Assembly (NCBI GenBank): GCA_963922205.1
Contig: CAWUHX010000098.1
Coordinates: forward strand, 62,001 to 126,000
Direction of reading: 5' to 3'
Origin: Romanomermis culicivorax
Lineage: Eukaryota; Nematoda; Enoplea; Mermithida; Mermithidae
DNA: 64,000 nucleotides
Part shown: piece after piece, positions 4,225 to 57,870 of the stretch
How positions within the stretch are numbered: the stretch's first letter is position 1
Layout of the letters: every line of letters begins with the position of its first letter
Position numbers and translations under genes: made by a program
Notes under the pieces: generated by a model
Seen by the model: only the letters and a program-made list of their open reading frames with translations
What the model was told of the DNA's origin: nothing
The model's database searches: none

Positions 4225-5028
4225 CAGGGTTGTTTTTTTCACAAAGCAACCAAATTTCGGGCTGTGCAACCAAATTTTTTGTGTCAAGTTGCACAGTGCA
4301 ACTTGAGGCCTGACTGCTCTTTTGATTAGATAACAGGGTTTTCTGTCTGGAGATGCATTTTTATGCGTTTTAAAATGGAAAAAAGTGAAAATTTTCAATT
4401 CATGTATATAGTTTTCCATATTCTAGTGCTCGGTTAAAAATGCCATTCTAGTTAGTGCTTATAGGTTCTAGTTATCAATATATTATAGGGATGGGTCGGG
4501 TATCCGGATCCGGATCCGCGGATATCAGCCTAAATTTTAGGATCCGGATCCGCTAAACCAGATTTTTTTGGATCCGGGGCCGATCCGATCATAATCGGAT
4601 TTTTATTCATTATTATTCACATAAAATTTTGCGGTATTAGAAAACATCAAAAATTTTCCGGCGCTTCGCGCTGGATCTTATAATTCAATGCAATACTATT
4701 TTTCTACAAATCGTGCTTTCTGGAGAAAAAATTTCCGGTAAAGGGAAAAAATGTTGGTGGTCCTCCTGTATGGAAAAGGCAAATTTTGATCCATTTCAGA
4801 ACGTCAAAATCTATTTTTCCAACTTTCTTGCAACTGTAATTTTAAACATGAAGCTGAGTTTGAATTGAGAAGCATCATGGAACTAACTTTCAGAAATTTC
4901 AGATTTAACTTGAAGTTTTTCAGATCTGTGAAAGTTATGAGAATCTTTTCTTAATTTATAAGATGATTATGAAGGGCGGGAACTCGAGTGCTATTAGGAA
5001 GAAACTTTGTGCGAAAATACATAAAAGA

Positions 5029-5289
5029 TCATGGTTTTTTTAGTGTACAAAAAAATTTTCTTCGTACAAAGACTTTTTGGCCGATCTTTGTACAGGTACA
5101 AAGAGGCTTGTACAAAAAGAACACTGCAATGGTAGCAAAGTTATACTTGAGAAACAGTAATTTTTCAACAGTATCACCCTTCAAACGATTTTTGGTAGGA
5201 TCATAAACTTGATCAGCACCACTGAATAGCTGTTCATAGGGGACACTTTTCGCTGGTGCTAATTTAAGTTTACTTTCTGCATGAAGCAA
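5029..5289 (-). pseudogene. hAT transposase C-terminal (hATC) fragment
   Basis: The minus-strand peptide contains SVPYEQLFSGADQVYDPTKN followed by RLKGDTVEKLLFLKYN. This matches the hAT C-terminal dimerisation region, in which a Ser/Pro-rich segment leads into an NRL...LLFLK core. The C-terminal tail reads into low-complexity sequence. It belongs to the BED-hAT at 4486-6020, and nearly identical fragments occur in the other two copies. It lacks the catalytic core and is non-functional. Confidence 0.75.
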
Positions 5290-5439
5290 TTGTCCAGAGA
5301 CGTTTGAGATTTGAGTTTATGCTCTAATTTGGTTTTTGAGTTGCTAGGTTCATTTTTTTGGCTATCTTTGAAGAAAACACACAAATTAATTCTTTAACAT
5401 AACTATACTAGTAGAACTTTGTTCCACAATTACTTCTAT

Positions 5440-5665
5440 TTTCTTTATCTTCTTTTTATTTAGCCGCAAACTGCTTATACTCGCATATTGCCATATGTTT
5501 CTTCTCCAAATGTTTTCTCTGACATCCAGTAGCACAACCTTTTCTGGAGAACTGTATTCAGCATTTATTGCACTTTGCCTTGTCTTCATCATCTGAGGAC
5601 ACTGTGAAGTAGTCCCACACTCTGCTAGTGAAAGAAGAACTTGAATCCATAATTTCTGAAAAAAG
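5440..5665 (-). pseudogene. BED zinc-finger fragment of hAT transposase
   Basis: On the minus strand the sequence corresponds to the cleaner BED fingers at 42864-43052 and 49694-49888, with the CNKC pair and a HLE-type histidine pair. Here it is broken by substitutions and a frame change. The BED finger is the DNA-binding N-terminus of many hAT transposases. Confidence 0.65.
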
Positions 5666-6470
5666 TTGTCATTTCTATTCTTTTCTGATGAAATCAATAT
5701 TAACCTAAACATGAATACAATTTAATGAAAGGAAATTATCAATTAGTATACATGTGAACTATTTCAATACACGAACACCTGAATCATTAATAATCTATTA
5801 ATCTATTGACACCAATGAATATAAATTCATACAACTCAATTTTAGATAAATTAGACATAGTACATATACTTATAGAAAGATCCGGATCCGCTCGGATCTG
5901 TTCCTGAAGATCTGGATCCGCTCGGATCTGTTCCTCAAGATCCGGATCCGGATCCGCTGAACCAAATTTTCCAAGATCCGGATCCGCTGTCGCCAAAAAA
6001 GTCGATCCGGCCCATCCCTAATATATTATGGATAAATGTTTGATCCTGTATTGTATTTTGGCGAATTTGATGAAAACTAATATTTTTCTCGGTCAAAATC
6101 AAAACCAAAATCTTTTTGCTATCTTCATAAAAATTTTGACTTTAACTCAACAACTTTAACAACTTTGATTAAAACATTTTGAGTGTAAGACAATGCTAGA
6201 TATTCTTGCCGGCTGAAAGATATAAATTCTTACTCGTTTGCTTAGTTTCTGAATTTTAGTTTGTCCGACCGAAAATTAACTAAATAAATTTGCTGAGAAA
6301 TCAAACTTTCTGTCTGGGAAATAAAAGTTGGAAAAATTCATTCTCCAGCGTTCTAGAATATTGAAATTCAGAAAAAATTTTCGGCGCTGCGAGCCGAACA
6401 AATCATCTTAGTCTAGCAATATTAATCTTTTCATTTTCTCACCAAAACCCAGAAAATTGGGTTTTAAAAG

Positions 6471-6910
6471 CATACATGTAACAGAGCTCCGAGGTCTGAG
6501 GGGGGGTTGGAGCACTTTTTTGGGGCCGGGGGTCAGTAATTCCCAAAATTTTGGGGGGAGGGGTCCCTGAAGGAGCAAAAATTCGATTTTTTCCATGAAA
6601 AATGTCCGAAAAAACGGTTTAAAAAGTAGTAATTTTTGTCTAAAAAATGATAAAATATGTACTTATGGCGCGAAGCGCCGAGAAAATTGACGTTTTTGAC
6701 CATTTTTTGTTCAAAAATTGACATTTTTCATTTAAAAAATGACATTTTTCAGTATTTTTCCGACTAAAACTATGGGGGTCCCTAGGGCTACCATATGGCT
6801 AGCCATAGGATTGGGAAATCCTGGGGGGGGTCGCCCAATGGCTAGCCATATGGTCGACGATTTCTGGGGGGGGGGGTTCCCATAGCACTTCCCCCCCAAT
6901 TATATGTATG
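6471..6910. mobile_element. hAT MITE family M1 (CATACATGTAAC ends), 440 bp
   Basis: It starts CATACATGTAACAG and ends AATTATATGTATG, with the exact TSD TTTAAAAG at 6463-6470 and 6911-6918. A paralogous stretch of the host repeat near 7470-7490 has a single TTTAAAAG and no insertion, so the empty site is visible in the same window. The interior has long G-runs near the left end and in the right half, and the GC hairpin module near 6667. A nearly identical copy is at 29078-29518. Confidence 0.93.
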
Positions 6911-7100
6911 TTTAAAAGCCTAAAACCGACGCGCATCGAAAGAAATACAAGAAAAGTAGTTTAGAATGGTTTTTCCGATAAAATTATACAAATTTATTGA
7001 TTTTAGAGTGAGCAACCCCAAATTTGTCTGTGCAACTTCAAATTTTCCCCAAGTTGCACATTGCAACTTGGCCTGTGCAAAAAAAAACCCTGGTTTGATC

Positions 7101-7655
7101 CTGTTCGTTTCTTGAAAATTTGACGAAAAGCAAGATTTTTCTCGGTTATTTTCCTAAAGTCTTTTTGCAGTCTTTAAAAAGATTTCGACATTTGTGTGAT
7201 TAAAGCATATTGAGTTCAAGTGGGAATTCTTGATGGTTGAGGAATGAAAACTCTTGGTTGCTTTCCTAGTTTTTGAATTGTAGTCCGCCCGACTGAAAAT
7301 TCATTGGATTCACTGAAAAATTAAACCTTCTGTCTAGGAAATAAAAGTTGAAAAGGTTAATTTTCCAGCGTTCTAGAATATTAAAATCCTAGAAAAATTT
7401 TCGGTGCTAAGCGTCCAACAAATTACTCATACCAATCTTTTCATTTTCTCTTCAAAACACAGAAAATTTGTTTTTAAAAGCCTAAAACCGACGGGAATGA
7501 AATAGAAGAAAACTAGGTTTTGGTGGTTTTTCCGATGACATTAGGCTAATTTATTGATTTCAGAAAGAACAACTAAAAATTTATCTGTGCAACCAAAATT
7601 TTTCTCCAAGTTGCACATTGGAATCTGGCATTTGCAGAAAAAAAGGCCTGTGGTC
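7101..7655. repeat. right part of the older GTTGCA-type repeat
   Basis: Sequence parallel to 6050-7092, including the motif TAAAAGCCTAAAACCGACG. It ends near a GTTGCA-word-rich terminus at about 7600-7650. Non-coding. Confidence 0.6.
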
Positions 7656-7846: not shown

Positions 7847-8422
7847 AAGTTCATACCTTCATGTCAGATTGTCAGCTGTTGGGAATCAGTTTTAAAATTT
7901 TATTTTTCATTGTTATCTTTTTATCAAAGTTTACTGTTTGTTCGATTTACCTTTTAAGTCAAAATTAGGTTGCTTTATGGCGTCAAAGAAATATAAGAAA
8001 TAAAGGTTATGCCGTCGAACTATTCTCTTGCTTTTTCTCATGTAAACTCACTTGAATATTTATTTACAAGCAGATCATAGCTCGAAACTTTTTGCAAAAA
8101 AATGTCGCTTCTTTGGCGGAATAAGATGCAAATTAATGATACACGTCCAAAAAACACATCAGAAATGATTTTGAGCGATTTTTAAGCAATGAAACTAAAA
8201 AAATTGATTTTTCCTCATGAGAAAAAATTTTTGGGGTTTTTCCTCAAATGGGGCAAAAAGTTTTCAGCAAAAAAAGACTGCTTCAGATCCCCCCCCCCCC
8301 AAAAAAAGGCGGTTAACCCCACCACCAGCGAGCGTTACACGCAATCAAATATTAAAAATTCAACCATGCTCAATTTCCAAAAAATTTAAAACCAAAGCAA
8401 CATCGCAGGCAATTCCTCTTAC
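7847..8422. other. intron-like, non-coding
   Basis: No gene is seen. A relic rich in TTTTTCCTCATGAGAAAAAA sits near 8205-8230 and a C-run at 8289. If the ZCCHC4-like gene continues to the left, this is part of the intron after its last visible exon. Confidence 0.4.
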
Positions 8423-9880: not shown

Positions 9881-12387
9881 CAGGGTTTATTTAGGTCAAT
9901 TAGGAGCTATGGCTCCTAAAAATTTAGCGGCACAAGCCAAATTGGCTTGTAAAAATTATAGGCTAATGATCCTTTTGATTAGAAGATTTCTGTACGGATG
10001 TGCATTTTTAAACAGAAAATACCAAAAATTTTCCGGCGCTAGGCGCCGGATTTCTAATTATTTATGATTCGTAGTATCATTCTGTTGTGCGGTTAGAAAA
10101 TTTCGGCCTAGTTTATGCTTGTAGCTTTTAAAATTCAGCATGTTATGGGAGAATGTTTGACCGTGTATTGTTTTTTCGCGTATTCGACAGAAATAAAGGT
10201 TTTTCTAGATTGTTTTTACAAAATCGTTTTGCAGTGCTTTAGAATTTTCGGTTATCATGAACATACCTTTTTGCATTTGGAAAATGATTGAAACGTCATT
10301 GGCATGGGAAAATGGCAGATTTTCTTGCTATCTGAAGAAACCATCCAGATTCTTTATTGCTTGCCTAATTTTTGAATTTTAGTTTGCCAGACTGAAAACA
10401 CATTGAATTCACTGAAAAATTGGACACATTTCATGCAGGGAAAAGTTATTTAAAATATTCATTTTCCCACGCTATAGAATATCAAAACCTAAAATTTTCT
10501 CCTGGTGCTAAAAGCCGGAAATAATTATCAATATTTAAGTCGAAGTAAAAAACATATCGCACTTTTTAAAGCTTCAAATCATTTGAAAACTCTTTGATAA
10601 ATAGGCACTGGCTCCCCAGATATATCAGATTGAAAATGGAGCAAAAATTTTTAACCTCTTCTGCCTACCCAATGGCAGGGTTTTTTTTTTGACCTACGAG
10701 TCACAAGCCAAGTGGCTTGTTGGCCTAAAATTTTACAAGCCATTCCAAATTTTTACAAGCCAATTTTATAATATCAGTATACGTGAATAAATTCCAATGC
10801 TAGGTTATTTTTTAAAGAAATGTATATATTGAGCATCACGGCAATTGATCAAAAAAATGTCATTCAACATTATTCAATAACATTTTAGAGCCATTAATTC
10901 TTTAAAATTCAGGAAACATTTGAAATTTTTGAGTTTGATCGAAGTCTAATCTACAAGCATTGTGGAACAAATTTTCCAGCAAACTATCCAAGAACATAAT
11001 GACTTTGAATTACATGAGAAATCGATGGCTAAGTCCTCTATGATGACAAGTGAGAGCCCAAAAAAGCTATTAATCTTTCCTGCCTGAAACGCCGGAAAAT
11101 TTTTTTGGGTATTGACATTCTGCGATGCTGGAAAATCAATTTTCCAAACACTTATTTGGAATATTAGATTCGAATTTTCTGTTCGAAAGTCGTAATTTCT
11201 AGAATTTTATGTTTGAAAAATTTTAAAACCATTAATTTATTCACACACTCTCATAAACTTGGCCGAAAAGATATGAGTAAGAAGAGTAGAAATTTCCGAA
11301 AACTACTTCCATGAAGCTTTTGGATTGATTTTAGGTTAAGAAAGGAATAATCGCTTCAAAAAGTTTACAAACTTGACGTATTGATTTTTCTCAAAAAATG
11401 TGTCAAGGTAAAAACGTGAATCTTCATTAAATATCAAGATGAAATATTGAAGATTATCAATTAAAACATGAGATAATACGTTTAAGATGATTAAAACTAT
11501 TAAAGATTAAATGATAAGTGAAGGTAGACATGTTAGAAGCAGCGCCTGAGCTAGAAAATAAATAATGCTTATTTAAGTTATAACCGGCGCGAAGCGCCGG
11601 AAAATTTTGAGATTATGACCTTCGAAAATGCACCAAAATGCATCTTTCCTGTATCCAATTTGATCAAACACATAAATTAAAAAATTCTGACAAGCCATTT
11701 TGGCTTGTTGGACTAAAATCCTACAAGCCATTTTGTCAGTCCAACAAGCCATGGCTTGTAGAATGCTAAAAAAAAAACTATGCCCAATGGTGAAAAGGTC
11801 ATGATCGATCATCGGTAAATTCAAAAGAATATGCTGAAAACATAAATTTTCCGACATTTTAGAAGCCTAGAAATCACATAAGTTTCGAACAGGTTACTCT
11901 AGTCAGCCTTTCGATTTTTTTCTTCAAAACTCTGGAAATTCAGTTTTAAAAGTCTGAAACTATCGCGAACTGAATGAAATACGAGAGATATAACTTTTAA
12001 TCATTTTCTGATCATTTGGCAAATTCATCAGTTTTAGATTGAACAACTGAAAATTTATACGTGCAACCAAATTTTTCCTCAAGTTACAAATCAGCCTGGC
12101 TTGTGCGAAAAAACCCTGATAATTGATTTGAATAATGACTGACCTAGTTTGTGAGCCTTATTATTCTGTGTGTGATGAGGAATGTATTCGAAATGATTGA
12201 TCTGTTATGTGGGCCTCTACTGTGATTTTGAAGAGTGTTTTTGACTAAATCTGTTGAGAAAAACTGTTTTTTACTACCACATTTATTTACAAACTTTTTA
12301 GTTTTGGCTTGATGAAATTCTTATTGGCCTGTAAAATTTTGACCTTAGGAGCCAAATGGCCTGTCGAGAAACAACCAAAAAAATCCG
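9881..12387. mobile_element. hAT MITE of the GGAGCC-word family, containing a nested hAT
   Basis: The left end is CAGGGTTTATTTAGG, with GGAGC/GCTCC words just inside. The right end is degenerate (AAAAAAATCCG). The TSDs CTCTTGAG (9873-9880) and CTTTTGAG (12388-12395) agree at 7 of 8 bases. The sequence parallels the element at 51400-52773. The CAAGCC-word hAT (10676-11782) is inserted in it. It has no coding content. Confidence 0.75.
10676..11782. mobile_element. hAT MITE of the CAAGCC-word family, copy 1
   Basis: It begins CAGGGTTTTTTTTTTGACC and ends TAAAAAAAAAACTATG, with the exact TSD CCCAATGG at 10668-10675 and 11783-11790. The word CAAGCC/GGCTTG is repeated in both orientations at both ends. 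The hairpin module lies at 11584-11600. This copy is one parent of the recombination that duplicated the next 7.5 kb. Confidence 0.92.
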
Positions 12388-13637: not shown

Positions 13638-13955
13638 CATACATGTAACAGGGCCCCCGAGGTCTAGGGGGGTCGGGTAACTTTTTTGGCCTGGGGTCAG
13701 TAATTCCCAAAATTTTGGGGGGGAGGAGTCTCCCAAGTGAAAAAATTCGATTTTTTCCAGGAAAAAGTCCGAAAAATAGTTTAAAAAGCAGTAATTTTTT
13801 TCTAAAAAGACCGGAAAAATGTATTCATGGCGCGAAGCCCCAAGAAAATTCATTTTTTACCATTTTTTGTTAAAAAATTGAAATTTTTCATCATAAAATT
13901 GACATTTTTCAATATTTTCCGACCAAATGTACGGGGTTCGTACTGCTACCACACG
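13638..13955. mobile_element. left half of an M1 MITE, split by a CR1-like insertion
   Basis: It starts CATACATGTAACAGGGC inside a (CA)n run and follows the M1 sequence of 6471-6910 until about CTACCACACGACTA. The family resumes after the retrotransposon tail at 17308 with AGGATTGGAAAATCCTG. The CR1-like element therefore appears to have inserted between the two halves. Confidence 0.7.
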
Positions 13956-14031
13956 ACTAATTTTTTTACCCTAAGCCCTTTTTTTTACCCTAAAATATTA
14001 AGTTACATTCAAGAGGATTATCTTATTATTC

Positions 14032-14230
14032 GACGAAATTAGCTTCATCAATTAATTTCGTGGCAACGTCACTAAGTTCCCTGCAACATCATATTGACTT
14101 ATTATCGCCGTTGCTCATCATTATTTATTTTTTGGCGAAATTGACTTTATCGATTAATTTCCTGGCAACATCATATTTGCTTATTGTCGCCATTACTAGC
14201 TCAGCATTAATTTATTCTTCGGCGAAATTG
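14032..14230 (+). repeat. tandem repeats in the 5' region of the CR1-like element
   Basis: Two to three imperfect copies of a ~85-105-bp unit built around GGCGAAATTG, TCGATTAATTTC and TGGCAACATCATAT lie just upstream of ORF1. Tandem 5' UTR repeats can carry promoter activity in non-LTR elements, which is an inference here. Confidence 0.65.
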
Positions 14231-14248
14231 TCTTTATGGATATTCAAA

Positions 14249-15230: not shown

Positions 15231-15264
15231 GATGGAAGCTGTGCTAATAAAAAAGTTGCGCCTG

Positions 15265-16484: not shown

Positions 16485-17141
16485 CAGGGTTTTTTTTGTA
16501 CATGACCCATTTGCACATGTACAAACGGCAGCCAATATTTCATTTGTACAATTTGTACATAGCAAAAATAGGTAGAAATAAGTAACCAGCGTTCCTACAC
16601 ATCATGGTCAAAGACTAATAACCAAATTAGTGTAATTTTCAAAATTTATTTATAATTACGAAAAAAAATTCAGAAAACTACTTCATGAAGCTTCTGAATA
16701 TATTTCAAGTTAAGAAAGGAATAATCGCTTCAAAAAGTTTAGAGTTTAGATGTATTGATCTTTCTCAAAAAATATTTCAAGGAAAAACTGTGAATCTTCA
16801 TTAAATATCATGATAAAATATTTAAGATTATCACTTGAACCATGAAATAATATGTTTGAGATGATGAAAACTATTGTACATTAAATGGCAAGTGAAGGTA
16901 GGCATTCTGAAAGCTGTGTCTGGGCTAGTTAATACATACTAATGATTAGTAAAGTTATAACCGGCACGAAGCACCAGAAAATTTTGAGATTAGGAACTTC
17001 TAAAATGCACCAAAATGCATATTTTCTGTACCTTATCCCCAAAATTTTCTTCCCTGAATGGAAAAGATACGTTTGTACATGTACAAATGAGTACCTGAAT
17101 TTCGTTTGCCCCCGAAAATTCCTCCGGCAAAAAAAACACTG
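16485..17141. mobile_element. hAT MITE of the TTGTAC-word family, 657 bp
   Basis: It begins CAGGGTTTTTTTTGTACATG and ends GGCAAAAAAAACACTG. The flanks ATTCCAAG (16477-16484) and ATTCCAGA (17142-17149) match at 6 of 8 bases. The word TTGTAC/GTACAA is repeated near both ends. Reading of the RT tail resumes immediately after it, which supports the borders independently. Confidence 0.85.
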
Positions 17142-17149
17142 ATTCCAGA

Positions 17150-22758: not shown

Positions 22759-22792
22759 GATGGAAGCTGTGCTAATAAAAAAGTTGCGCCTG

Positions 22793-24669: not shown

Positions 24670-25363
24670 ATTCCAGATCAACTGTAAGAGCTATATGCTT
24701 TTTTGACCAAGCACAGCATATTCATTGATGTATTGCATATTTATTCCGTATTTGTAATTAACTTACATTGTTTATTTCATTATATTCTCCTAACATTGCT
24801 TAGTGCCGTTGCGAATAAAATCATCATACATCATCATCATAGGATTGGAAAATCCTGTGGGGGGGGGTTCGCCCAGGTTTTTTTTTGGTTTGAAAACCAG
24901 GAGCCAAATGGCTCCTAGGCAGGGTTTTTTTCCGCACGCCTTCATCCGCACTGTGCGGAAATGACCCAAAATTTTTTCCGCACACGAAAATTTTTTCCCT
25001 TCGAAGTTTATATCATTTGAAAAATGTGTGAAATGAGCGAAAATTATAGATTGCTAAGAAAATAATGTAAAGTATCTGTTTTTCTACCTCAAAAAAATAT
25101 ATTAGCTTGATTAAACAAAATTAATAGTTGCTGCTGTCATTTCTGTGATTAGAGCCGATGACTTATAGATTTCAATCGATTTTCCAATTGACTGAATTTC
25201 TACATTTTGATATTCTAGAATGCTGGAAAATTAGCATTTTCAACCTTCATCTCTAAAATAAAAGGTTTGCACTTTCAGTCGAAAATCGTGTAGTTTCCCA
25301 ATCACAAAATTTGTGTTCACAAAGTGCAGAAAACTTCAAGTGAGAGAAACAATTCATGAAGAT

Positions 25364-26965
25364 TAGAGCTACACACGACAAAAATTTCGTACCCGGGTAC
25401 CCGTTTATTCATTACCCGGGTACATGTTAAAATGAGTTGTAATGTTAATGTACATAATATATAATATTAGACAGATATATACACTGTGAAAATATAATGA
25501 TGCATTACACACACTCCGTAGTCCCTACTTACATAATATTTTTCAACACTTGTGTTGAAACACTGGTTGTGTTGTTGTATACAATAGGCTGCATAGGTAG
25601 GTATATTGCGAATATAATGCTAGAGATGATTGATACACATCATCGACGCACCTACGCTGCAAAATACTACACATCACATCATGATAGCTCAATATTATTG
25701 ACGAGACAAAGCAAAATTTGCATACCTCCAAGTTTTTTTTTTTGACCTATGTACGAGTCACAAGCCAAGTGGCTTGTTGACCTAAAATTTTACAAGCCAT
25801 TCCAAATTTTTGCAAGCCAATTTTATAATATCAGTATACGTGAATAAATTCCAATGCTGTTATTTTTTTAAAAATGTATATATTGAACATCACGGCAATC
25901 GATCAAAAAAGAGATATCATTCAACATTTATTCAATAACATTTTAGAGCCGTTAGTTCATTAAAATTCAGGAAACATTTGACATTTTTGAGTTTGATCGA
26001 AGTCTAATCTACAAGCATTGTGGAAAAAATTTTCCAGCAAACTGTCCAAGAACATAATGACTTTGAATTACATGAGAAATCGACAGTGAAGTCCTCTATG
26101 ATGACAAGCGAGAGCCCAAAAAAAACTATTAATCTTTCCGGCCTGAAACGCCGGGAAAATTTTTTGGGTATCGACATTCTGCGATGCTGGAAAATCAATT
26201 TTCCAAACACTTATTTGAAGAATTAGATTCGAATTTTCTGTTCAAAAGTCGTAATTTCTAGAATTTTATGTTTAGAAAATTATAAAACCATTATTTTATT
26301 CACACACTCTAATGAACTTGGCCAAATTAGATATGAGTAAGAAGAGTAGAAATTTCCGAAAACTACTTCTATGTATGAAGCTTTTGGATTGATTTTACGT
26401 TAAGAAAGGAATAATCGCTTCAAAAAGTTTAGAGACTTGACGTGTATTGATCTTTCTCAAAAAATGTGTCAAGGGAAAAATGTGAATCTTCATTAAATAT
26501 CAAGATGAAAAATTGAAGATTACCAATTAAAACATGAGATAATACGTTTAAGATGATTAAAACTATTAAAGATTAGATGATAAATGAAGGTAGACATGTT
26601 AGAAGCAGCGCCTGAGCTAGGAAATAAATAATAATGCTTATTTAAGTTATAACCGGCACGAAGCGCCGAAAAATTTTGAGATTATGACCTTCTAAAATGC
26701 ACCGAAATGCATCTATTCTGTACTCGATATGACCAAACACATGACTCAAAAAATTTTGACAAGCCATTTTGGCTTGTTGGACTAAAATTCTACAAGCCAT
26801 TTTGTCAGTCCAACAAGCCATGGCTAGTAAAAGGCTAAAAAAACTATGCATATCTCTACTCTCAAGTCTACATATTATAGGGGATACAAAACGGGTACCC
26901 GAATTACCCGGGTAATGGTTTTCATTTTGTACCCGGGTAATTCGGGTACCCGGTGTGAAGCTCTA
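25364..26965. mobile_element. hAT-like element with TAGAGCT ends and GGGTACCC palindromes
   Basis: The ends TAGAGCTACACAC and, reverse-complemented, TAGAGCTTCACAC are inverted repeats. The flanks ATGAAGAT (25356-25363) and GTGAAGAT (26966-26973) match at 7 of 8 bases. Just inside both ends are stacked GGGTACCCG/CCCGGGTA palindromes. Without its nested hAT it is about 0.47 kb. Confidence 0.85.
25729..26848. mobile_element. CAAGCC-word hAT, copy 3
   Basis: It begins CAAGTTTTTTTTTTTGACC and ends TAAAAAAACTATG, with TSDs CATACCTC (25721-25728) and CATATCTC (26849-26856), 7 of 8 bases. It is several percent diverged from copy 1, which provides the markers that map the recombination point in copy 2. 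Confidence 0.9.
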
Positions 26966-27599
26966 GTGAAGATCAATATTAAATCTCAACTTTCAACAAA
27001 ATCCGAACCTAATACTGAAGATTTCTAATTGATGAATGGGATGAGGAACTTCAAATGATGAAAACCATGCACTCTTGACTTCCGATGCGTCACACCAGAC
27101 AATTTTTGAACAAAGGAGCTACTGAAATGTTGGAAAATGTATTCTAGAGATAATTTGTAATGCTTTCGGTTTAGATTTTTCCTAGAAAAATGATGGTATT
27201 AAATAAATGTGTGGAGAAATCTGGGAAAAATCAGCAAATTCGTATGAAAATTCCAATTCACACTACAAAGTGACGAGTTTTACTCACTCTAGCAGAGACA
27301 TATAAGATTGATGGAAACAATCAGGGACAACCGAGAAATCAAAGTGAACTTCTTTTTGGCTGCGCTTCAGCTAAATTGTAGTTAATATTATATATTATTT
27401 TCTTTGAAAAATTTGAGATTTTGACCATCTAAATTTTGAGATTTTGACCATCTAAATTGCACCAAAATGCACCTTTTCATCAATGCCAGCAGTAGAACCG
27501 CCCAAAAAAATTTCCGTTCTGTGCGGGAAATGCCCAAAAATTTTTCCGCACAGCCCAAAAAAAGTCCGCACTGTGCGGAAAAAAAACCCTGCTCCTAGG

Positions 27600-28867
27600 C
27601 CTAAATTTTTAGGGGCCAAATTAAAATTTTGGGAGCCAAAAATTTTTATTTAAAGAATATTGAAAAACGTGCTTGTAACACACTGTAGAACGTACTATAT
27701 AATCAAATTATATGTAGATATTCAATCAGTTGATACGAGTTTTAAAAAATCACTGTTCAAAATTTGATTTCCACCCAGCGTTTTCAGTTACAGGCATCTT
27801 TCCACACGTACAAACATCGGCTGACAAATCTTTGTGGGAAGAAAATTTTTTATGCAGAAAACGCGATATTTTGTTTAATTTTGCACAAATCTTCATCCAA
27901 GATTGCACTTGAATTCATTTCCTTCCGACTCAAAAGTATAGGGTTTTGAAATTGCAGCTTCTGTCCTCATTTTTCTGTTGTTTCCTATATCTTTCCGGCG
28001 CTATGCAACGATTTTTTTCAGATTTTGACATTCTAAATGCTGGAAAATCATTTTAAGGATAACTTATTCGATAAACATACAAGGTTCGAAAACATGTATT
28101 ATATCATTTAACAAACTAAAAAATATGTTCATTCTTTCATAAGTTTGACAAGCTTAAATTAAACTTGAAATTTATGAACATCACCTCCATTGTAATCATA
28201 CCTGTAAGACTTCGGACCAGTTGGGGGGGGGGTAAATCCGAAATTTTTGGGGGGTAGAAAAAAGTCGAAATTTTTCCCAAAAAAAACCGAAAAATACACT
28301 TTATTGAAAATTTTTTCAATTTTTTTCAAACTGGAGGGGGGGGTTGGGGGGAATGATTTTGGGTACAGGGTTGGCCAAGTTGGGGGGGGGTCCCCCCCAA
28401 CCCCCCCAAGTACAGGTATGATTATAATCATGAATTCAAACTCGGCTCCATATTTAAAATAATAGTAACAAAAATGGAAAAATTGAGATATTTATCACCA
28501 GAATTCTTTTGCACCAAATGCACCAAAATTCATCTTTTCCATTTCGAACCCGCATGTTTTTCCCCTTCATCCAGAATTTTTTTCCAGAAAGTTTGATTTG
28601 TAGAGAAACAGTGAATAGACTAATTAAAAAAATTATATAATAAGATCGGGTGCGAAGCGCCCGAAAATTTTTGATGTTTTATGATTATACAGCCTGTAAA
28701 ACACTTACTTCAAATCTAAAATTGAATGAAAACAGCTACAATTCACTATAATATAAATGAATATGTCAAAATTTTAGGAGCCAAAATGGCTTCTAGTCCT
28801 AAAATTTTAGGAGCCATTTCCAAACTTTTAGGGGCCCAGGCCTTTAAAATGACTAAAAAAAAGCCTG
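27600..28867. mobile_element. right part of the GGAGCC-word hAT
   Basis: Non-coding remainder of the element whose left end is near 17354 (and 24882). It ends CTAAAAAAAAGCCTG at 28867, with GGAGCC/GGCTTC words at 28770-28840 and a hairpin module near 28647. An M2 MITE is inserted at 28197. Confidence 0.65.
28197..28420. mobile_element. M2 MITE, 224 bp
   Basis: The ends are CATACCTGTAAGAC and TACAGGTATG. The flanks ATTGTAAT (28189-28196) and ATTATAAT (28421-28428) match at 7 of 8 bases. G- and C-tracts form the subterminal regions. Confidence 0.9.
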
Positions 28868-31993: not shown

Positions 31994-33226
31994 GTGTTGT
32001 GGAGCGATTTGACGTATTTGTAAAGTTTGTGTCGCGTTTGAGAAAAGATCTGCAAGTTTGAGGAAGAAAGATTGTGACGAGACCCGGGGAGAGGCGTGGC
32101 TACGATGTGGAGAAATTGTGAAAATGTTTTTGATCAGAGTTTGTTTTGTACTGTAGCCAGACGGTTGTGTTTTCCTGTTTGTCTAGAGAGTGAGAGGCGG
32201 CGATTTGTATATTAGTAAATTGTGCTGAGAAAGTGTGTTCTAGATTGAGTCAAACTATTTGGAAAATAGTTTGAGTATTCAGGTGAAACTCCTAGCGGTT
32301 AAGATAGTACGGCCCGAGTTTTCGGCATCCGAAAACCTTTGACGACCTGAGCAAAGATCCCTGGATAAATTGACACAGCGCTCTCTACGAGCCCGTCAAT
32401 CTCCTGCGTACGATTATCATTGCATTAAATTCGTCTAACACTCCGAGTCAGGGCCGTGCGCAGGATTTTTTCATGGGGGGGGCGGACTAGATTTTTTCAA
32501 TGAATAGCCCCAGAAAATGTTGATCATACGCGGATATACTGTGTGCATCACCGTTTTTTTTCCTCGAAGATTTTTTTCACATGAGAACCGGAACCAAAAT
32601 TTTTTTCCTCATTTTCCAAAAATTTTCCACATTTTTAAAAACGCTTATAATGTGGCTACGGATGCTTTTTTATGCATTTTAGGAGCATACCCAAGCATTT
32701 TGTTGTATTTGTAGTCAGAAACCTGCAAAAATGAGGAAAAAAATTGAGAAAATTCTGTTTATGTTAGTCAAAATGAGCTCATGAAGAATATATTGGTGTT
32801 CTATAGAATGGTGCGGCGCGGAGCGCCGGAAAAATTTTTTGATTTTCACTTTCCAAAACGCTGGAAAATGAACCTTCATAACGTTGTGAAATAAATTAAA
32901 ATCAGAATGATGAAGCGTAATTTGCCTCCCATTCCGGCGCGAAGCGCCGGAAAAATTTTCGGGTTTTTGTATTCTAAAACGCTGAAAAATAAATCTTTCC
33001 AACAGATAATTCGTGAACAAATGTTTTGAAATCGCGTTCTAGAGTAATGTCTTCAATTTCCACCTTCAATAAACGCAAAAGTTCAGATTGCAAACGTTTA
33101 AAAAATTCCAATCATCGAGGGAAAAAATTGAGAGACTTGATGAAAAATCTCTATTTTCGGCGACATAATTGACTGTAAACGATTAGAAAATGAAACGAGC
33201 TAGCTTGATTGATAGAAACTGTTGAG

Positions 33227-38381: not shown

Positions 38382-40940
38382 ACATTCATTTTGGGTTCTC
38401 ACTTGTCATCATACTGAGCTTAACCATCGATTTCTCATGTAATTCTCAAAGTCATTATGCTTTTGGATAGTTTGCTTGAAAATTTGTTCCAATGCTAGTT
38501 ACATTAAATTTTGAACTCGAAAATTTCAATTTTTTCCTCAATTTTAATGAATTAACGGGTCTAAAAACACCAGGAGGCATGAAAAGGCTCAAAAACACCT
38601 AAATAAAGCGTCTGTGAGCATTTTAAAGCGAAAAAAACGACTCCGGGAAAATGGGGAAAAAAATTTTGACCCCTTTCCCCATTTGGGGAAAAGGCCCGGG
38701 AAAAAAAAACAGTGACAGCGACCAGCGTTTTTTTGTGCACGGACAGGACATTTGTGTCAATTGGCACAAGACGCCAAGAAGATTTGTGCCAATGGCACAA
38801 AAAATTTTTTTCTACCAGAAACATACTGAAAACTGCGGAAAAGTTTTAGACCAAAAATTTTGATGGAAAGTTAACGTTTTACACATTACTTTTTTTGTAA
38901 AAATCGTGCGTGCCTTACCTATTTTTAAGCTAACCATGTCAGTTAGATAAGAAAAAACTGTGCGGGAAAATAGTTCACGACGACTTCAAAAGGAATGGAT
39001 GCTGAGAAAATTTAAATAACTCTAGAATTGTTCAGGAAATTCAAACTGATTCAATTTTTGACGACGAATATGAATATCTTTAGGTAAAATACATTCAATA
39101 ACAATGTTAAGACTATAGAGAAAATAAAGTCAAAAATTGTGGAAATTTTCGATCGGAACATTGTACCATTACCAACGATATCGATTTTTCCATTATTCTA
39201 ATTGAATCAAGTAAACACAAAAAGTGAGAATTTCAGTTTTAAATCCGAATTTGACTGAATGAACAAAGAATATTCAGAATTTCTTTTCATCCATCGTTGA
39301 CATTGACAGCCTATAGAGTTTGCTGCAACGATACTAATACACTGTTCGAAGAGGAATCGTTCGCGTTCGGGTCAAATATACAAATAGATATAGAAAATAT
39401 TATATTCGTTCACTGGGCGCGAAGCGCCGAAATTTTTTTTACATTTTCAGCCCCTAAGACGTCTAAAAACCAAGGAAATTTAATGTTTGACCAGCCAAAA
39501 ATTTTGTGCCAATTGGCACAAACGCTCAATATTTTTTGTGCCATTCCAAATTTTTTTGTGCCAAAAACCATGTTTTGGCACAAAAAAAACACTGACAGCG
39601 ACCCGCGTTTTTTTATTCGCGGATATTTGTGCCAATTAGCACAGGAGACCAAAAAAATTTGTGCCAATGACACAATAAAATTTTTTCTACTAGAAACGTA
39701 CTGAAAGCTGCAGAAAAGTTTTAGGCCAAAAAGTTTGATAAAAAGTTAACGTTTAACGCATCAATTTTTTGTAAAAATCGTGCCCTACATATTTATCAGC
39801 TAAACATGTCGGTGCACATTTATCAGCTAACCATGTCAGTTTTTCCACGGAATTCTTTCCACAAATGTGGAAATGGGTCAAATTTTTTTTCCTCATGTTG
39901 AAAAAAAATTTTTTTTTGGTCTTAAAATCTTCGTTTTTCGCTTGAAAATGCTCATAAACGCTTTAAGTGTTTTTTAGCGTTTTAAAGCATTCCGATAATC
40001 ATTCTGATCATATATCTCAAAAATTAGATTTAAATTTTATGTTCATAAATCGTAATTTCTAGAAATTTATCATTCGAAAAATTTTAAAACCATTAATTTG
40101 TTCGTAACCTTTCATAAATTTAGCCGGAAGGTTATGAGTCAGAAGCGTAGAAATTTTTAAAAATTACTTCCATGAAGCTTTTAAATTGAATTTTCGTTAA
40201 GAAAAGAACAAACGCTTCAAAAAGTTGAGAAAGTTGACGTATTGATCTTTCTCAAAAAATCTCTGAAGGAAAAAATGCGGATCTTCATTAAATATAATAA
40301 TATAATATGCAAGATTGCCCATCATTAAACACGAAATAATACGTTTAAGATGATGAAAACTGTTAGGATTAAATGGTAAGTGAAGGTAGACATGCTAAAA
40401 TCCACGCCTGAGCTTCACAATAAATAATAATGATTATTAAAGTTATAACCGGGGTGAAGCGCTGAAAATTCTGAGATTCGGGCCTCATAAAATGCACCAA
40501 AATGCATCTTTTCGATATGAGAACCTCAAATTTTTCTTCTACATTTGTGGAAAGACCTCAAAAATTTATTCCACATTCCAGATTTTTTTTCCACATAGTG
40601 CAAATGTGGAAAAAAACAGTGCAGCGACAGCGACCAAATTTCGTGCAACCAGATTTTCGCTGTCAAGTTGCACAACGCAACCTGAAGCCGACAGCCCTTT
40701 TGATTAGGTTGGTAGGGTTTTTTGTCCGGAGATGCATTTTTATGCGTTATAAAATGGGAAATAAGAAAATGTTCCGCCGCTTTGCTCCGGATTTACCTAT
40801 ATAATTTTTTAATATAATTCTTCTGCGGGTGCGAGTGGGGTTAGAAAATTGCATTCTAGCTAATGCTTGTAGCTTCTGATAAATATTTGGCCTTGTGTTG
40901 TTTTTCACGAATTTGACGAAAAGCAAGCGTACCTACCCGT
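38382..40940. repeat. mosaic of hAT relics (CAAGCC, GTGCC, TTCCACA, GTTGCA words)
   Basis: 38385-38500 matches the CAAGCC-family body in inverted orientation. 38570-38870 and 39475-39700 have GTGCC/GGCAC words with an AAAAAAAACACTG end at 39593. 39840-40620 has TTCCACA words and runs inverted to 35159-36210. 40628-40700 has GTTGCA words. No coding sequence is convincing. Confidence 0.6.
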
Positions 40941-41405
40941 CATACCTGTAAGAAGTCCGACCACTGTTTTTTTGCACATTTGCACTATAATGTGGAAAAA
41001 AATCTGGAATGTGGAAAAAATTTTTGAGGTCTTTCTACAAATGTGGAAGAAAAATTTGGGATTTTCATATTGAAAAGATGCTTTTTAGGGCGTCCAAATC
41101 TCAAAATTTTCCGGCGCTTCGCGCCGGTTATAACTTTAGTAATCATTATTATTTATTACCAAGCTCAGGCGCGGCTTTCAGCATGTCTACCTTTACTTAC
41201 CATTTAATCTTTAATAGTTTTCATTACCTTAAACGTATTATTTCATGTTTAACTGGCAATCTTAAATATTATATCTTTATATTTAATGATGATAGGTTAC
41301 GAACAAATTAAAGAAAGCATTGCGCAGCGAGATCTGTCATCAATTTGATTGGTCGAAAAAATTTATTGATTTTTTCAGTTGTTCTGGTAAATTTTCTTGC
41401 TTACA

Positions 41406-46884: not shown

Positions 46885-48195
46885 CAGAGTTGGGAAAAAA
46901 CCCATTTTCAAAATTTCAAATTTGTGTTTATTAGGGTTTTTATGGGTTTTTCTGGGTTTAATCAGGGTTTTTTTATATTTCAGAATTGTGGATCTGAATT
47001 AAGTATAAAACTACATCTCTAAAGTTTTATTCTCCATAAAGCAAAACATTTTCAGATCATTTTTCCTGATTTTAAGCAAAAATACACAGATTCCTTATCA
47101 TAATGAATAGAATCATATACTAATTCACCATCAAGAAAATTTTTGACATTGAATTTTATGAAGACTAGCTTTTCGACTGACGAAGATGACAATCGATTAT
47201 GCAACTTGGTGTGAACAAAGCCAAATGTTGAAAAATTACGCTCTGATGAGGCAGTGGACACCAACATGGAAAACACCTGATTATAACATGACAAAAAATT
47301 TCGCTTGCTTGCCATTATTAGTCTTAAGAAACGTACTCTCAAAGCAATTTTTTGGAACAAAGGCCACGTTCTGAATTCCATCAACCAATATTGCATAAGC
47401 AGATTTTTGACTGCTCCAGCATTTCGTAACGAAACGCATTTTTTCTTCATCTTCACTTGCCGAGATCTTTTACTCATTGAGTTGTTTGTAAATTGTGACT
47501 TTGAATGGTGAAAAAAGTTTGATGTTTCTTTCTTCAACATTTATACTGCTTACAGCCATTCAACCAGCATACTTGGCGGTCCATTTTCAGCCCATTTTTG
47601 GACTCAAAAAGCCGTTAGCTGTCTCTTTTTCCAGTGAGTCTGCTGTCTCCATCAAAATTTTAGAGCTGCTCAAGTCAGCTCACGAAATGCTGATGGCTGT
47701 GAGCAGTAGGTATAACAAAAACTTTAGCAGCACTAGCACTGCTCATAAGTGCTCGGGATCCATGAGCAGTAAAATTTGCCTAATATTCAGATAAACTACC
47801 AAATCAAATCAACTTCAGCCAAAAGACAATTCAAACATAAGTTAAATTTATTGAATATGAATCTAGCTTTTCGATTAGAATAACTCAACTCAACAGAACA
47901 GTCATAGGAACCGAATCAAATAGCACTAAAAAGTCTCCTGAATTGAAAATTTATCATAGCATTTGATTTGTTTTTTGTGTTGTGTGTGATCTCATCTCAA
48001 ATCTGTTGTCATGTCAGTGTCAGAGAAGACTGCATTTCGTAACTAAAGTTAACTCAACTCTCAATTTGATTGTTAAATCAGGGAGAAACTTGTATTCCAG
48101 AGAACTAATAAAAAAATGATTTTTTTCCTTAAAAAACCCAAAAACCTAGAAATGTCCAATTTTCCAACCCAAAAATCCAATGCCCGCCAACCCTG
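46885..48195. mobile_element. hAT inserted in RT motif A, with transposase remnant
   Basis: The ends CAGAGTTGGG and, reverse-complemented, CAGGGTTGGC carry TSDs TTTGATTC (46877-46884) and TATGATTC (48196-48203), 7 of 8 bases. The RT reading frame continues across it. Subterminal AACCC/GGGTT words are abundant. It carries a hATC coding fragment on the minus strand. Confidence 0.92.
47052..47540 (-). pseudogene. hAT transposase C-terminus (hATC domain), 162 aa
   Basis: Residues 94-130 contain VSTASSERNFSTFGFVHTKL and RLSSSSVEKLVFIKF, the canonical hAT dimerisation motif (SSERNFS...NRL..EKLVFI). Residues 1-93 are frame-shifted or poorly conserved. The catalytic DDE residues are not present in this fragment. 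It lies inside the TSD-bounded hAT at 46885-48195. Confidence 0.88.
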
Positions 48196-51399: not shown

Positions 51400-52773
51400 C
51401 AGGGTTCTTTTGGCCAATTGGGAGCCATAACTCCCAAAAAATTGATTGGCTCCTAAAAATTTAGCAGCACAACCCAAATTGGCGTGTAAAAATTGGTGTT
51501 TAACGACCGTTTTTGATTAGTTTAAAGAGTTTTCTGTCCGGAGATGCATTTTTATGCGTTTTATAAAAACACATGAATTTTTCGGCGCTTCGCGCCGAAT
51601 TTCAAATCATTTATGATTCTTGGTATCATTTCTGTTGTGCGGTTAGAGAATGTCGGCCTAGGTTGTGCTTATAGCTTTTAAACACCAGCGTGTTACGGTG
51701 AAATGTTTGACCTTTTCTTGTTTTTTTCGCGTATTTGACAAAAATCAAGATTTTTCTAGATCATTTTCACAAAATTGTTTTGTTGTTTTTAAGAATTTTA
51801 GGCTTTTGTGAACATAACTTTTTGCATTTGGAAAATGATTAAAACATCATCAGCATGGGAAAATGGCAGAGATTTTTGTTGTCTGAAGAAGCCATCAAAA
51901 TTATTTGTTGCTTGTTTAATTATTGAATTTTAGTTTGCCCTATTGAAAACACATTGAATTCACTGAAAAATTCGACCTTTCATGCAGGAAATACAAATTA
52001 AAAATATTCATTTTTCAACGCTATAAAATATCAACATCCAAAAGTTTCCTCCGGTGCTAAGCGCCGGAATTAATTACAGATAATCGAACCCGAGTAAAAT
52101 ACCTATCGCGCTTTTTTATGCTTCAAATTAGTTTGAAAACAATATCTTTGGATAAATATAATTAAGAAAATGTTCGATCACTTTCGTCAACCAAATAGTG
52201 AAAAGATCACTATCGATCATCGGCAGTTGCAGGAGAATGTGCTCAAAAAACGAATCTAGGTACCGAACCAGTTACTTTAGCCAGCCTCTTGGTTTTTCCT
52301 CCAAAACTCAGAAGATTCGGTTCTAAAAGTCAGGAACTGATGCTATGTGAATGAAATACAAGGGAAGTAACTTTTAATCATTTTTCGAGTGAAACTTTAA
52401 GTGAATTTATCAGTTTTTGAGTGAGCAACTACAAATTTATCTACTATGCAGCCAAATTTTTTCCCCAAGTTGCACATTGCAACCTGGCTTGTGCAAAAAA
52501 ACCTGATGATTGATTTGAATAATGACTGATCTAATGTGAGCCTTATTATTCTGTGTGTGATTGACAATGTACTCAAATTGATTGATCTATTATGTGGGCT
52601 TTTACTGTTATTTTGAAGAGTGTTTCTGAATAGATTTGATGAAAAAGCGTTTTTTTACTACCGCCTTCGTTTACAAACTTTTTAAATTTTGACTTGTTGA
52701 AATTTGGATTGGCCTGTAAAATTTTGACCCTAGGAACCAATTGGCTTGTCGAGAAAAAATAGAAAAAACCCTG
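51400..52773. mobile_element. hAT MITE of the GGAGCC-word family, 1374 bp
   Basis: CAGGGTTCTTTTGGCC to GAAAAAACCCTG. The flanks GACCAATG (51392-51399) and GACCAATC (52774-52781) match at 7 of 8 bases. Words GGAGCC/GGCTCC and CCAATTGG lie near the ends. It is the uninterrupted relative of 9881-12387 and has two hairpin modules (51582, 52062). Confidence 0.88.
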
Positions 52774-54769: not shown

Positions 54770-56030
54770 AAGGTTAACCAAGTAAGCAGGGAATCGGCCA
54801 ATCAACCAGAGAATCAACTAACCAACCAATCAGTCAGGGAATCAGTGAACCAATCAGTCGCAGTGAACTAACTATAATCAGTAAATCAATCAACAAACCA
54901 GGGAATCAATGAACCAATCAATCAATCCGGTAAACAACCGATCATGAAATCAACGAACCAACCAACCAGAGAATCGATGAAACAACCAACCAACCAATCA
55001 GAACAACAACTAACCAACCAACCCGGGAAACAACCAACCAACTAATCAGGCAAACAACCAACCAACAACCAGGAGATCAGCCAACCAACCAGAGAATCAA
55101 TTAATCAATCAACTAACCAATCGAGGCGTCAATCAACTAGCTAATCGGGGAATCAAACAACCAACCAACCAACCAGAAAACCAATGAACCAACCAATCAG
55201 GGAAACAACCAATCTATCAACCAACCAGGAAATGAACTAAGCAACCAATCGGGGAAACCACCAATCAGAACCTAACCATTCAGGGGATCAGCCAACCAAA
55301 CAGAGAATCAATGAATCAACCAACCTACTAATCAGATAATCAATAAACCGACCAACCAACCAGGGGATCAGCCAGCCAACCACAGAATCAATGAATCGAC
55401 CGACTAACAAATCGAAGCACCAATTAACCAACCAAGGAATAAGTGAACTAAACAGCCAACCAATCAGGGAATCAGTGAACTAACCAAACCAATCGAGGAA
55501 TCAATCAATCAACCAACTAACCAATTGAGGAATCAATCAACCAACCGATCAAATAGGGAGTCAATGAATCAACCAATGAAGGAATCAATTAAACAACGAA
55601 CCAGGAAATCAATGAGCCAACCAACTAGTCAATCAAGGAGTCAACCAACCAACCACCCAGTGAATCAGGAAATCAATCAATTAACCACTAATCCGAGATA
55701 AAACCAAAATCCAACTGCAGAGAGATCAACCAACCAACAAGGAAAAGCAACTTACTTTGATTTCCTTGTTGGTTGGTTGATTCACTAGGTGAATAAACGT
55801 AATAGTAGTAATTATAATTCGCAGGTAATTTCTCAACTGGCTGTTTAGTTGAATCAGCCAACTTAACAGTCAGTTATGAAATTGTCGTTCGAATCACAGT
55901 GTCAATGAACCAGCTAATCCGGAAACCAATCTCAACTAACCAATTCATTAACTTGAGAATCAAGCAATCAGCCAAAAAGGGAATCAAGGAAACGAAACCA
56001 ATAAATCAAGCAATTAGCCATTATGATCAC
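54770..56030. repeat. degenerate AACC/AATC minisatellite, ~1.25 kb
   Basis: Irregular repetition of 4-bp blocks (AACC, AATC) grouped into 20-40-bp units such as CAACCAACCAATCAGGGAAT. Order is lost towards 55700-55880, where an inverted CAAGGAAA/GGTTGGTTGATT segment occurs. The strand bias (pyrimidine C, almost no G runs) is constant over a kilobase. No protein is likely. Confidence 0.9.
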
Positions 56031-56093
56031 CAACCGCCAATGAAATCCAGGGAAGCATTTATGCATGACTCAGTCGTGATATAATTGTTTAAG

Positions 56094-56296
56094 CATACCT
56101 GTAAGACATCCGATCACTGGGGGGAGGTAAGCCCTAAATTTTTGGGTGGGGTCCCATAATTTTGGGGATCCACAAAAAACCGAAAATTTCCCCAAAAAAC
56201 TCAAACAAGCTAATTTTTTAATTTTTCCGAATTGGGGGTCCCAATATTACGGCATAGGGTTCGACCAATTTGGGGGCCCCCCTAGTTATAGGTATG
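56094..56296. mobile_element. M2 MITE, 203 bp
   Basis: CATACCTGTAAGACATCC to TATAGGTATG. The flanks TGTTTAAG (56086-56093) and TGCTTAAG (56297-56304) match at 7 of 8 bases. Confidence 0.88.
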
Positions 56297-56514
56297 TGCT
56301 TAAGCAGACGAGTATATATATTTTTATCTGATGATTTGGTTTTCGCTCGCATGGTCAGACCATCACTTCTAAACTGGGCCATTGAGCAGTATTTTTTTGG
56401 ATTGAAATTTTCAGTTGTGAACCATTGATTTTGATCCCCATGAATTCATTAGGATGCACAAGGCTTGATTAGAAGCTAGTTATTATCTTGTTTATAATTA
56501 AAAATAGATGCAAC

Positions 56515-56635
56515 TCCGCTGTTTTTTTTCATGAACATTTTTGTACATATGTATACAAAGATCAGCCAAAAAAATTTTTGTACTCTATAAAAATCATGAT
56601 TTTCAGTGTATTTTTCCGCAAACCTTCTTCCAGAT
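56515..56635. repeat. TTGTAC-word hAT end relic
   Basis: CTGTTTTTTTTCATGAAC, then TTTTTGTACATATGTATACA and TTTTTGTACTC. This is a truncated terminus of the family seen at 16485-17141. Confidence 0.5.
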
Positions 56636-57870
56636 CAGGGTTATTTCCGCATGCTTCCATCCGCACCGTGCGGAAATGACCCAAAATTTTTTTCGCACGC
56701 AAAAATTTTTTCCATTCGATGTTGAAATCATTTTAAAAATGCGTAAAATAAGCGCAATTGTAGATTGCCAGGAAAAGCTTGAAAATTATCTAGTTTTCTA
56801 GCTCACAAAAATTATTTTAGGTTGTTTGAACAAAATTAACAGTTGCTGCCATCATTTCTGTGATTAGAGCTGAAGATTTATAGATATAAATTGGTTTTTC
56901 AATTGACTCAATTTCTAGATTTTGATGTTCTAGAACGCTGGAAAAAATGGGTTTTTCAACCCTTATGCCTAAAATAGAACCGTTACATTTTTAGTCGAAA
57001 ATCGCGTATTTATCGTTTCTCAGCAACAAAATTTGTGTTCACAAAGTTCGGAAAACGTCAAGCGAGAGAAAGAAGTCGTGAAGATCAATAATAAATCTCA
57101 ATTTCTAACAAAATCTGAACATACTTAAGATTACTGATTGATAAATGAGATGAAGACCTTTAATTAATGTAACCAGAGAATTTTTAAACACAGGAGCTAG
57201 GTACTGAAATGTTGGAAAATGTATACAATTGTAGAGAACAAGCCTCTAGCCTAGCCAGGAATTTTTTTCCGGGGGGCACACGTTTTTTCACTCAATTGAC
57301 TGTAAATTGGCATTTCTGACGTGACTTTTTCCTGAAGAAAAAACCGGAGGTCTTTTTTTACACCTACTTTTTTTAACGCTTGAAACATTTCGGGGAGGCA
57401 TGGCCCCAGCCCCCTGCTACAGACCTGGTAGAGATAATTTGTAATACTCTGAGTGCAAATTTTCCCTACAGAAATCATGGTTATTAAGTAATTGTATGGA
57501 GAAATGTGAGAAAAATCAACAAATTCATATTAATCGTAAAAATTATATTCCACTATGAAAAGCAACGAGTTTTACTCACTCCAGCAGAGACATACATAGC
57601 AGATTCATAGAAACAATCATAGATAACTGAGGAATGAAACTTCACATCTTTTTGGCTGTGCTTCAGCTTAGTTGCAGTGAACATTATGAATTGCCATTGC
57701 CGGAGCGGAGCGTCGGAAAAATTTGAGATTTTGACCTACTAAATTGCACCAAAATGTACATTGTCATCAATGCCAGCAGTAGAAACGCAAAAAAAAACTT
57801 TCTGTTCTGTGCGGAAAATGCCCAAAAATTTTTTCGCCCAGCCCAAAAACAGTGTACTGAAAACACCTTG
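56636..57870. mobile_element. hAT MITE of the CCGCAC-word family, diverged copy
   Basis: It begins CAGGGTTATTTCCGCATGC and runs parallel to 24920-27591 without the nested elements. The proposed right end GAAAACACCTTG is degenerate, and the flanks TTCCAGAT and TTCCAGGA agree at 6 of 8 bases. Confidence 0.65.

Follow-up and report, generated by a model that had tools for sequence, protein, structure and literature searches.

The subterminal words used by hAT transposases are already known, element by element, to differ. Hermes binds a quasi-palindromic pair of subterminal repeats through two cooperating BED domains, and a 1-bp shift is enough to impair cleavage (PMC10368747; this and later citations refer to excerpts of the papers). 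Herves carries a repeated subterminal motif, CG/AATTCAT, at both ends, and its authors report that the bound regions differ among hATs and confer specificity (PMC3143072). The maize Ac/Ds elements are hATs that combine 8-bp duplications and subterminal hexamers (AAACGG) with filler interiors (PMC3260210), and among the coral CMITEs and Wuneng-Microuli, families of miniature inverted-repeat transposable elements (MITEs) are linked through common parts (PMC2872659). Here we describe a window of 64,000 nt from the nematode Romanomermis culicivorax (C98:62001-126000 in a 359-Mb assembly of 595 contigs; positions below are those of the window unless a contig is named), in which families of hAT MITEs share a tip followed by a run of T and each carry a short word of their own, repeated near both ends.

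These families resemble the described systems in several respects and depart from each of them. Like STR1/STR2 of Hermes, their words are short repeated subterminal sites with a palindromic pair and strict phasing to the tip; Hermes, in contrast, is one element with one word (AAGT/C) and asymmetric ends, and the excerpt describes no set of families with a rewritten word (PMC10368747). The Herves report compares separate elements rather than families of one genome with a common tip, layout and interior (PMC3143072). Ds elements have the same ends and different interiors, whereas here the same interior also occurs between different ends and the words change as well (PMC3260210). The coral CMITEs were compared against piggyBac-like transposons, and no word arrays are described in the excerpt (PMC2872659). 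Going by titles and opening lines of abstracts in the open PMC library, no paper describes sister MITE families whose subterminal words change in concert or are exchanged, which is weak evidence of absence, with subscription journals and bioRxiv outside that scope. We propose, with a probability of roughly 72%, that the ends of these non-autonomous hATs are addressed by the repeated word, that its copies are putative BED sites, and that new families arise by rewriting the word in place or by exchange of blocks. A short word near both ends looks like an address, rewritten or swapped as new families arise.

The words, their layout, their concerted change, the chimeric families and the coupling of word to cluster in transposase-bearing hATs were computed directly. 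Elements in the window were paired by a CAGGG-type tip with a T-rich stretch and by flanks matching at 6/8 positions or better, which chance gives in 0.9% of pairs; 10 of the 254 pairs tested qualified, against about 2 expected. Two of these ten are second copies of others, created by a near-exact duplication at offset 7528-7529; since it repeats the elements at 10676 and 16485, each was counted once. Three of the ten (2271; 13178 and its copy at 20706) are unlike MITEs of the T-run kind. As in other hATs, T-run MITEs have 8-bp duplications (12 elements match at 7/8 or better, 8 of them at 8/8; 10676-11782 is also 8/8) and short terminal inverted repeats that start with CA(G), among which CACTG, CACCG, CAGCG and CATAG tips occur too. 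They are short and non-coding (326 to 2868 bp including nested insertions) and of high copy number; one MITE interior gave 3038 first-look candidates genome-wide, 40 of which were scored.

Counts of each word in the terminal 120 bp were compared with dinucleotide shuffles in 18 word-by-end tests, of which 14 gave p<=0.005, two gave p of about 0.03, and two failed (GGAGCC at the right end of the 51400 element and CAAGCC, a word added in the analysis, at its left end). The claim of a preliminary description that MITE families here have their own words near their ends, enriched over shuffles, is therefore confirmed as a whole, and the T-run tips at 4225, 10676, 16485, 24920 and 51400 lie where it had placed them. 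The TTCCACA tip that it gave at 40963, with CAGGG or CAGTG, exists with its word; it starts at 40962, however, and reads CACTG. An element is likewise present near 39475, where a GTGCC family was described; its exact extent is 38723-39594 and its word TTGTGCC. The 51400 element did not hold up as a clean example of GGAGCC: it is a weak one because the word has 2 copies at one end only, while the sites at the other end are CAGGCC/CAAGCC-like. GGAGCC forms a better array at about 24874-28867, where a CCGCAC element interrupts it; the inter-site spacers of this array are by eye like those of the CAAGCC family.

Twelve elements chosen by tip, T-run and a duplication of at least 7/8, blind to the word, share on average 12.5 six-mers between their own two ends and 4.7 with the ends of other elements (p 2e-4); without the two that came from loci fetched with GTTGCA, the values are 12.2 and 4.0 (p 1e-4, n=10). 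A blunt scan of 74 T-run ends, many of which are not element ends, gave 16/74 at p<=0.02, compared with 11/150 control T-runs. Chance as the origin of the words was ruled out by the end matching, by the shuffle tests and by the zero counts of reversed layouts reported next.

The words follow a rigid layout. From 101 T-run ends, we selected 26 of the left type and 19 of the right type by hand and aligned them. A left-type end has one site (S1) after the T-run, a palindromic pair (S2/S3), and a fourth site (S4) about 32 nt past S2; lineages on this scaffold carry TTCCACA, TTCCCC, TTCCTCA, CCGCAC, TTGTGCC, TTCTGC, TTGTAC (three sub-lineages), GTTGCA, CAAGCC, CAGGCC and TTAGCAC. An exact 5-nt palindromic pair is present in 18/26 left-type ends (8/13 lineages), and in those 18 its centre lies 30.5-36.5 nt from the tip, a fixed distance of the Hermes type. 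S2 and S4 are 31-33 nt apart in 15/15 ends with an exact S4, and S1 and S2 are 14-15 nt apart in 10/10 ends with an exact S1. Between lineages, same-column identity is 0.87 in the T-run and 0.58 in the spacer before S4, as compared with 0.42 in S2, 0.45 in S3 and 0.37 in S4. Genome-wide, the pattern TTTTTTGTAC-gap-TTGTAC-gap-GTACAA has 940 matches and its TTGTGCC version 1729, while the reversed patterns have 0 each; in searches with free gaps, all but two rows per search, among the matches listed, have one of two lengths by eye. An early count of CAGGG followed 18 nt on by GTTGCA (349 against 120 reversed) was weaker than these later, fuller patterns.

On this scaffold the word changes in concert. 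Best-6 identity between S2 and S4 averages 5.92 within lineages and 3.99 between them (13 lineages, p 5e-5); the corresponding values are 5.69 and 3.90 for S2 with the reverse of S3, and 5.00 and 3.88 for S1 with S2. The pattern TTCCNCA, in which each of three sites has a single free letter, has 62 matches genome-wide and 0 in the control (at C7:115363, a palindromic place, two of these matches overlap, and some gaps exceed the left-type layout). The three free letters are identical in 48/62 matches (16.9 expected) and in 25/38 distinct strings (7.2 expected; p 5e-5), with A in 35, C in 10, G in 3 and mixed letters in 14, four of which read C-A-A. T occurs among the 62 only in mixed strings, and a TTCCTCA family is present in the fetched loci. 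The right ends of TTCCCC, TTCCACA and TTCCTCA elements align from tip to interior (256/325, 223/296 and 191/257 positions), including bp 15-110 alone (56/77, 65/80 and 52/69; 0/300 shuffles as good). Judged from these alignments, the word of the three families has been rewritten in place on one scaffold, at most sites and not at all of them. Layouts that mix TTGTGCC and TTGTAC were counted 21 and 19 times genome-wide (gaps 4-14; the single-word TTGTAC count used 6-14), and many of them have the spacer that normally accompanies the word in their palindromic pair, which is what a single-letter mutation at S1 would produce. Some TTCCTCA right ends keep an inner TGTGGAA (L039 672 (-), L015 3460 (-)), and others have TGAGGAA (L024 6159 (-), L026 8807 (-)), as if outer sites had been rewritten before inner ones.

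Two further families combine one interior with different ends. At the right end of the CAAGCC element, the match to the TTCCCC element is confined to the part from bp 124 inward (181/201, 90%), and over bp 15-110 as many as 106/300 shuffles do as well. The TTGTAC element matches it only from bp 75 inward (211/256, 82%); its bp 1-72 are weakly similar (26/300 shuffles as good), its bp 34-72 match another TTGTAC end at 30/39 positions (0/300 shuffles as good), and a decayed site of the older kind lies just inward of the breakpoint. Queries across the junctions gave 1365 candidates for CAAGCC and 1428 for TTGTAC, and all 40 matches scored for each, which include the window's own two copies, cross the junction (96-100% and 90-100% identity); the chimeras are thus multicopy families. 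They fit moved ends and a moved interior equally well.

Other hATs, which are abundant in the same genome, allowed words to be compared with transposases. A search with the dimerisation domain gave 1837 candidates, 150 of them scored, with those listed exceeding the cut-off, and 60 of their 3' flanks were taken; 20 more came from 151 matches to the hAT at 58103, for a total of 80 transposase 3' flanks. Many of the 60 loci are not intact. For 45 of them, assigned by eye to 11 lineages after the words had been seen (15/60 were left out), the cosine of repeat-word content is 0.61 for pairs of the same lineage (85 pairs) and 0.04 for different ones (905 pairs; p 5e-4). Clustering all 60 by peptide score alone gave 0.68 and 0.04 (19 clusters, p 0.001), and a looser threshold 0.43 and 0.03 (13 clusters). 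In these other hATs, the word tracks the transposase cluster. The words of the 11 lineages are GGATCC, ACTCGAA, CCGAGTC, ACCCGAA, ATCYGGATCC, CGGTTCC, CGGTTTC, CCGGGTA, GGATATCC, AAACCT and GGTGCC, and a TAGGGATG-like tip is common to several of them.

The ends of an element may thus be addressed by one short word, present in several copies whose spacings are near-fixed, behind a tip that hardly varies. By analogy with Hermes, the word is most likely a putative site of the N-terminal BED zinc finger of the transposase, with two fingers on the palindromic pair. The layout, in which one site and a palindromic pair are followed about three helical turns on by another site, is consistent with this. 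New families would arise either by concerted rewriting of the word across the sites of one scaffold, probably during a shift in transposase specificity, or by exchange of the outer 75-125 bp with the end of another family or capture of an interior between other ends, which would therefore place an old interior under a new address. Binding of the words by BED fingers, isolation of the families, and the driver and direction of the change are what we infer here. Just short of even odds, we would place the bolder proposal that one genome holds a legible history of transposon speciation by address switching, with a rigid grammar, a word rewritten at its sites together, one position of which takes all four letters (TTCC[A/C/G/T]CA), and exchange of whole blocks.

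Several observations weigh against this account. No CAGKG-T-run tip could be assigned to its transposase in the 80 flanks: a T-run 3' tip lies downstream in 4/80, by eye beyond the transposase's own tip in L032, L035 and L043, and in L083, where it lacks a family word, past the stretch common to L083 and L037. The pairing of word and transposase consequently holds for the other hATs only, where agreement within clusters is partly plain copy identity and the informative part is that clusters differ. A BED finger is readable in only 2/11 stretches (L118 and L119), and the difference between their helices proves nothing by itself; a BED flag in L115 came from a loose regular expression and was judged to be chance. 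The ends in the layout, column-identity and S2-S4 lineage tests were hand-picked to have two or more word hits, a selection that inflates agreement there, whereas the six-mer end matching, the genome-wide TTGTAC and TTGTGCC counts, the TTCCNCA letter test and the mixed-word counts are independent of that choice. All p-values overstate independence because copies are related by descent. Mixed-letter TTCCNCA elements exist, and not all spacers are kept: between-lineage identity in the S1-S2 spacer is just 0.33, below the word sites, and since this stands beside near-fixed distances, spacing is better kept than spacer letters. Finally, Hermes with mutated inner sites keeps about 70% of its activity and has right-end sites without BED engagement (PMC10368747), and Ac and Tol2 are described as having motifs that differ from one end to the other (PMC3143072); an array of the same word at both ends can therefore not be taken as a rule for hATs in general. 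The address code read from this DNA in the preliminary description is therefore partly supported. Its near-fixed termini with family-specific words are borne out, to which a near-fixed layout is added here, and so is its sharing of internal sequence by several families; the CAAGCC and TTGTAC elements have a TTCCCC interior in common. The modular swapping of words that it proposed fits the different outer blocks of those two families but not the three families of the TTCCNCA series, which differ by the same letter change on an alignable scaffold. A distinct transposase for each word agrees with the other hATs (60 loci), but none could be assigned to a T-run tip in the 80 flanks.

The alternatives differ mainly in what they let move. 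If ready-made end cassettes were swapped by recombination or template switching and words never altered in place, the two multicopy chimeras and the commonness of nested elements would follow. We consider such pure exchange unlikely: the right ends of TTCCCC, TTCCACA and TTCCTCA are alignable from the tip into the interior and differ in the word letter at most sites, mixed-letter TTCCNCA strings exist, and the S1-S2 spacers of TTGTGCC resemble by eye those of one TTGTAC lineage. As the sole mode, exchange was rejected on the TTCCNCA right-end alignments. A stronger competitor, to which we would give somewhat less than an even chance, is that the interior moved rather than the ends, with pieces of other MITEs gained as filler by interrupted gap repair. 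In topology such capture and end exchange are identical, Ds2 and Ds-l4 are documented to contain filler DNA (PMC3260210), and on the left of the CAAGCC element about 455 bp fall outside the part common with TTCCACA. It competes with end exchange only and is compatible with in-place change of the word, the concert of which on one scaffold it leaves unexplained.

Two further explanations deny the word its role as an address. One transposase could move all T-run families promiscuously while their words drift without effect on specificity, in keeping with the lack of distinct partners for these families in the 80 flanks and with the finding that few hexamers can be enough for Ds1 elements to move (PMC3260210); words in free drift would not, however, stay matched across sites and both ends, and we see only a small chance of this. 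It is more improbable still that the words are hairpins or selfish palindromes without address function, kept alike by local template switching. Palindromic pairs do lie near the ends and copying between their arms could yield concert, but the direct copies outside the palindrome (S1 and S4) agree as well, the spacing from the tip is fixed, and in other hATs the word follows the transposase cluster. Addressing of the ends by a repeated word remains our preferred reading.

Table 1. Mobile elements and element ends in the window; strand as assigned, remarks as obtained by computation or, where stated, by eye.
Feature	Position	Strand	Remarks
GTTGCAC-word hAT MITE	4225..7092	+	Target-site duplication GTTTGATC 8/8; 3 words per end (p 0.004, 0.0015); interrupted by nested hAT
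Nested hAT remnant, TAGGGATG tip, GGATCC words	4486..6020	.	Target-site duplication ATATATTA by eye; tip and word as in lineage NLATVGLKFL
TTGTAC mini-element, about 100 bp, nested in GGATCC hAT	5030..5131	+	Similar ones end at 42534, 49366
CAAGCC-word MITE, chimera	10676..11782	+	Target-site duplication CCCAATGG 8/8; duplicate copy about 18205-19310
TTGTAC-word MITE, chimera	16485..17141	+	Flanks 6/8; duplicate copy 24013-24669
AGGAGCC-word element split by CCGCAC insertion	about 24874..28867	+	By eye; boundaries approximate, no clear target-site duplication
CCGCAC-word MITE	24920..27591	+	Target-site duplication CTCCTAGG 8/8; CAAGCC copy nested inside, about 25733-26848 by eye
TTCCTCA-series end, mixed sites	32549..32680	+	Another at 46398 (-)
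TTGTGCC-word MITE	38723..39594	+	Target-site duplication ACAGCGAC 8/8
TTCCACA-word MITE	39837..40621	+	Left tip degenerate, by eye; right end alignable with TTCCCC and TTCCTCA right ends from tip inward
TTCCACA-word end	40962..41320	+	Inner limit approximate
hAT remnant	46885..48195	-	GGGTTTTT-type repeats near one end; open reading frame with dimerisation domain 47052-47540; flanks 7/8 by eye
Mixed MITE: GGAGCC left, CAGGCC-like right	51400..52773	+	Target-site duplication 7/8
Second CCGCAC-word copy	56636..57854	+	Left p 0.0015, right p 0.03; right end decayed
3' part of another hAT	57923..58564	-	CAGGGTATAC repeats; open reading frame with dimerisation domain 58103-58564; tip inferred by eye from loci L049-L052

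Besides hAT transposase remnants and numerous nested MITEs (Table 1), the window contains a myosin II heavy-chain exon and a non-LTR-type endonuclease domain. The duplication at offset 7528-7529 covers at least 10695-18330 and 18224-25858, with an exact run of 6562 nt, and appears to be either a very recent segmental duplication or an assembly artefact. The 100-bp TTGTAC mini-element lies inside three GGATCC hAT copies (5030-5131, 42440-42534 and 49366 (-)), as if carried along while its host multiplied; contig C9 has two BED hits, 493 and 497 nt away from ends of the mini-element type. Copies of the hAT C-terminus at 58103-58564, about 95% identical, occur at C299:25799, C25:1785910, C31:465093, C277:104903, C420:63171 and C177:606858, and six copies of this hAT sit in open frames of 905 amino acids, so that it may have been recently active. 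The hATs of this 905-amino-acid type were considered as partners of the T-run families and rejected: their ends read, by eye, CATACATG...CAGGGTATAC and have no T-run. A CCGGCGCTTCGCGCCGG-type hairpin recurs in many MITE interiors under different end words (e.g. 11584-11600 and 41111-41127). At 37683-38381 there is a nearly perfect inverted repeat of 349 bp (97%, arms separated by 1 nt) in which GACCAGTGGTC palindromes recur, and at 54886-55701 a short tandem repeat array within a strongly base-skewed stretch; 8360-8746 (-) has a weak Pfam match, under the curated cut-off, to an N6-adenine methyltransferase family.

If the proposed addressing is correct, exchanged address blocks would bring old interiors under a new transposase, and the 11 words of the 11 transposase lineages would amount to a natural recognition code of BED fingers. 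Sister families within one genome, in which the layout is held and the word is changed in concert, would allow the joint change of a protein and its scattered sites to be studied, and the chimeras point to a way in which a non-autonomous element, by acquiring a new address, could persist beyond its own transposase.

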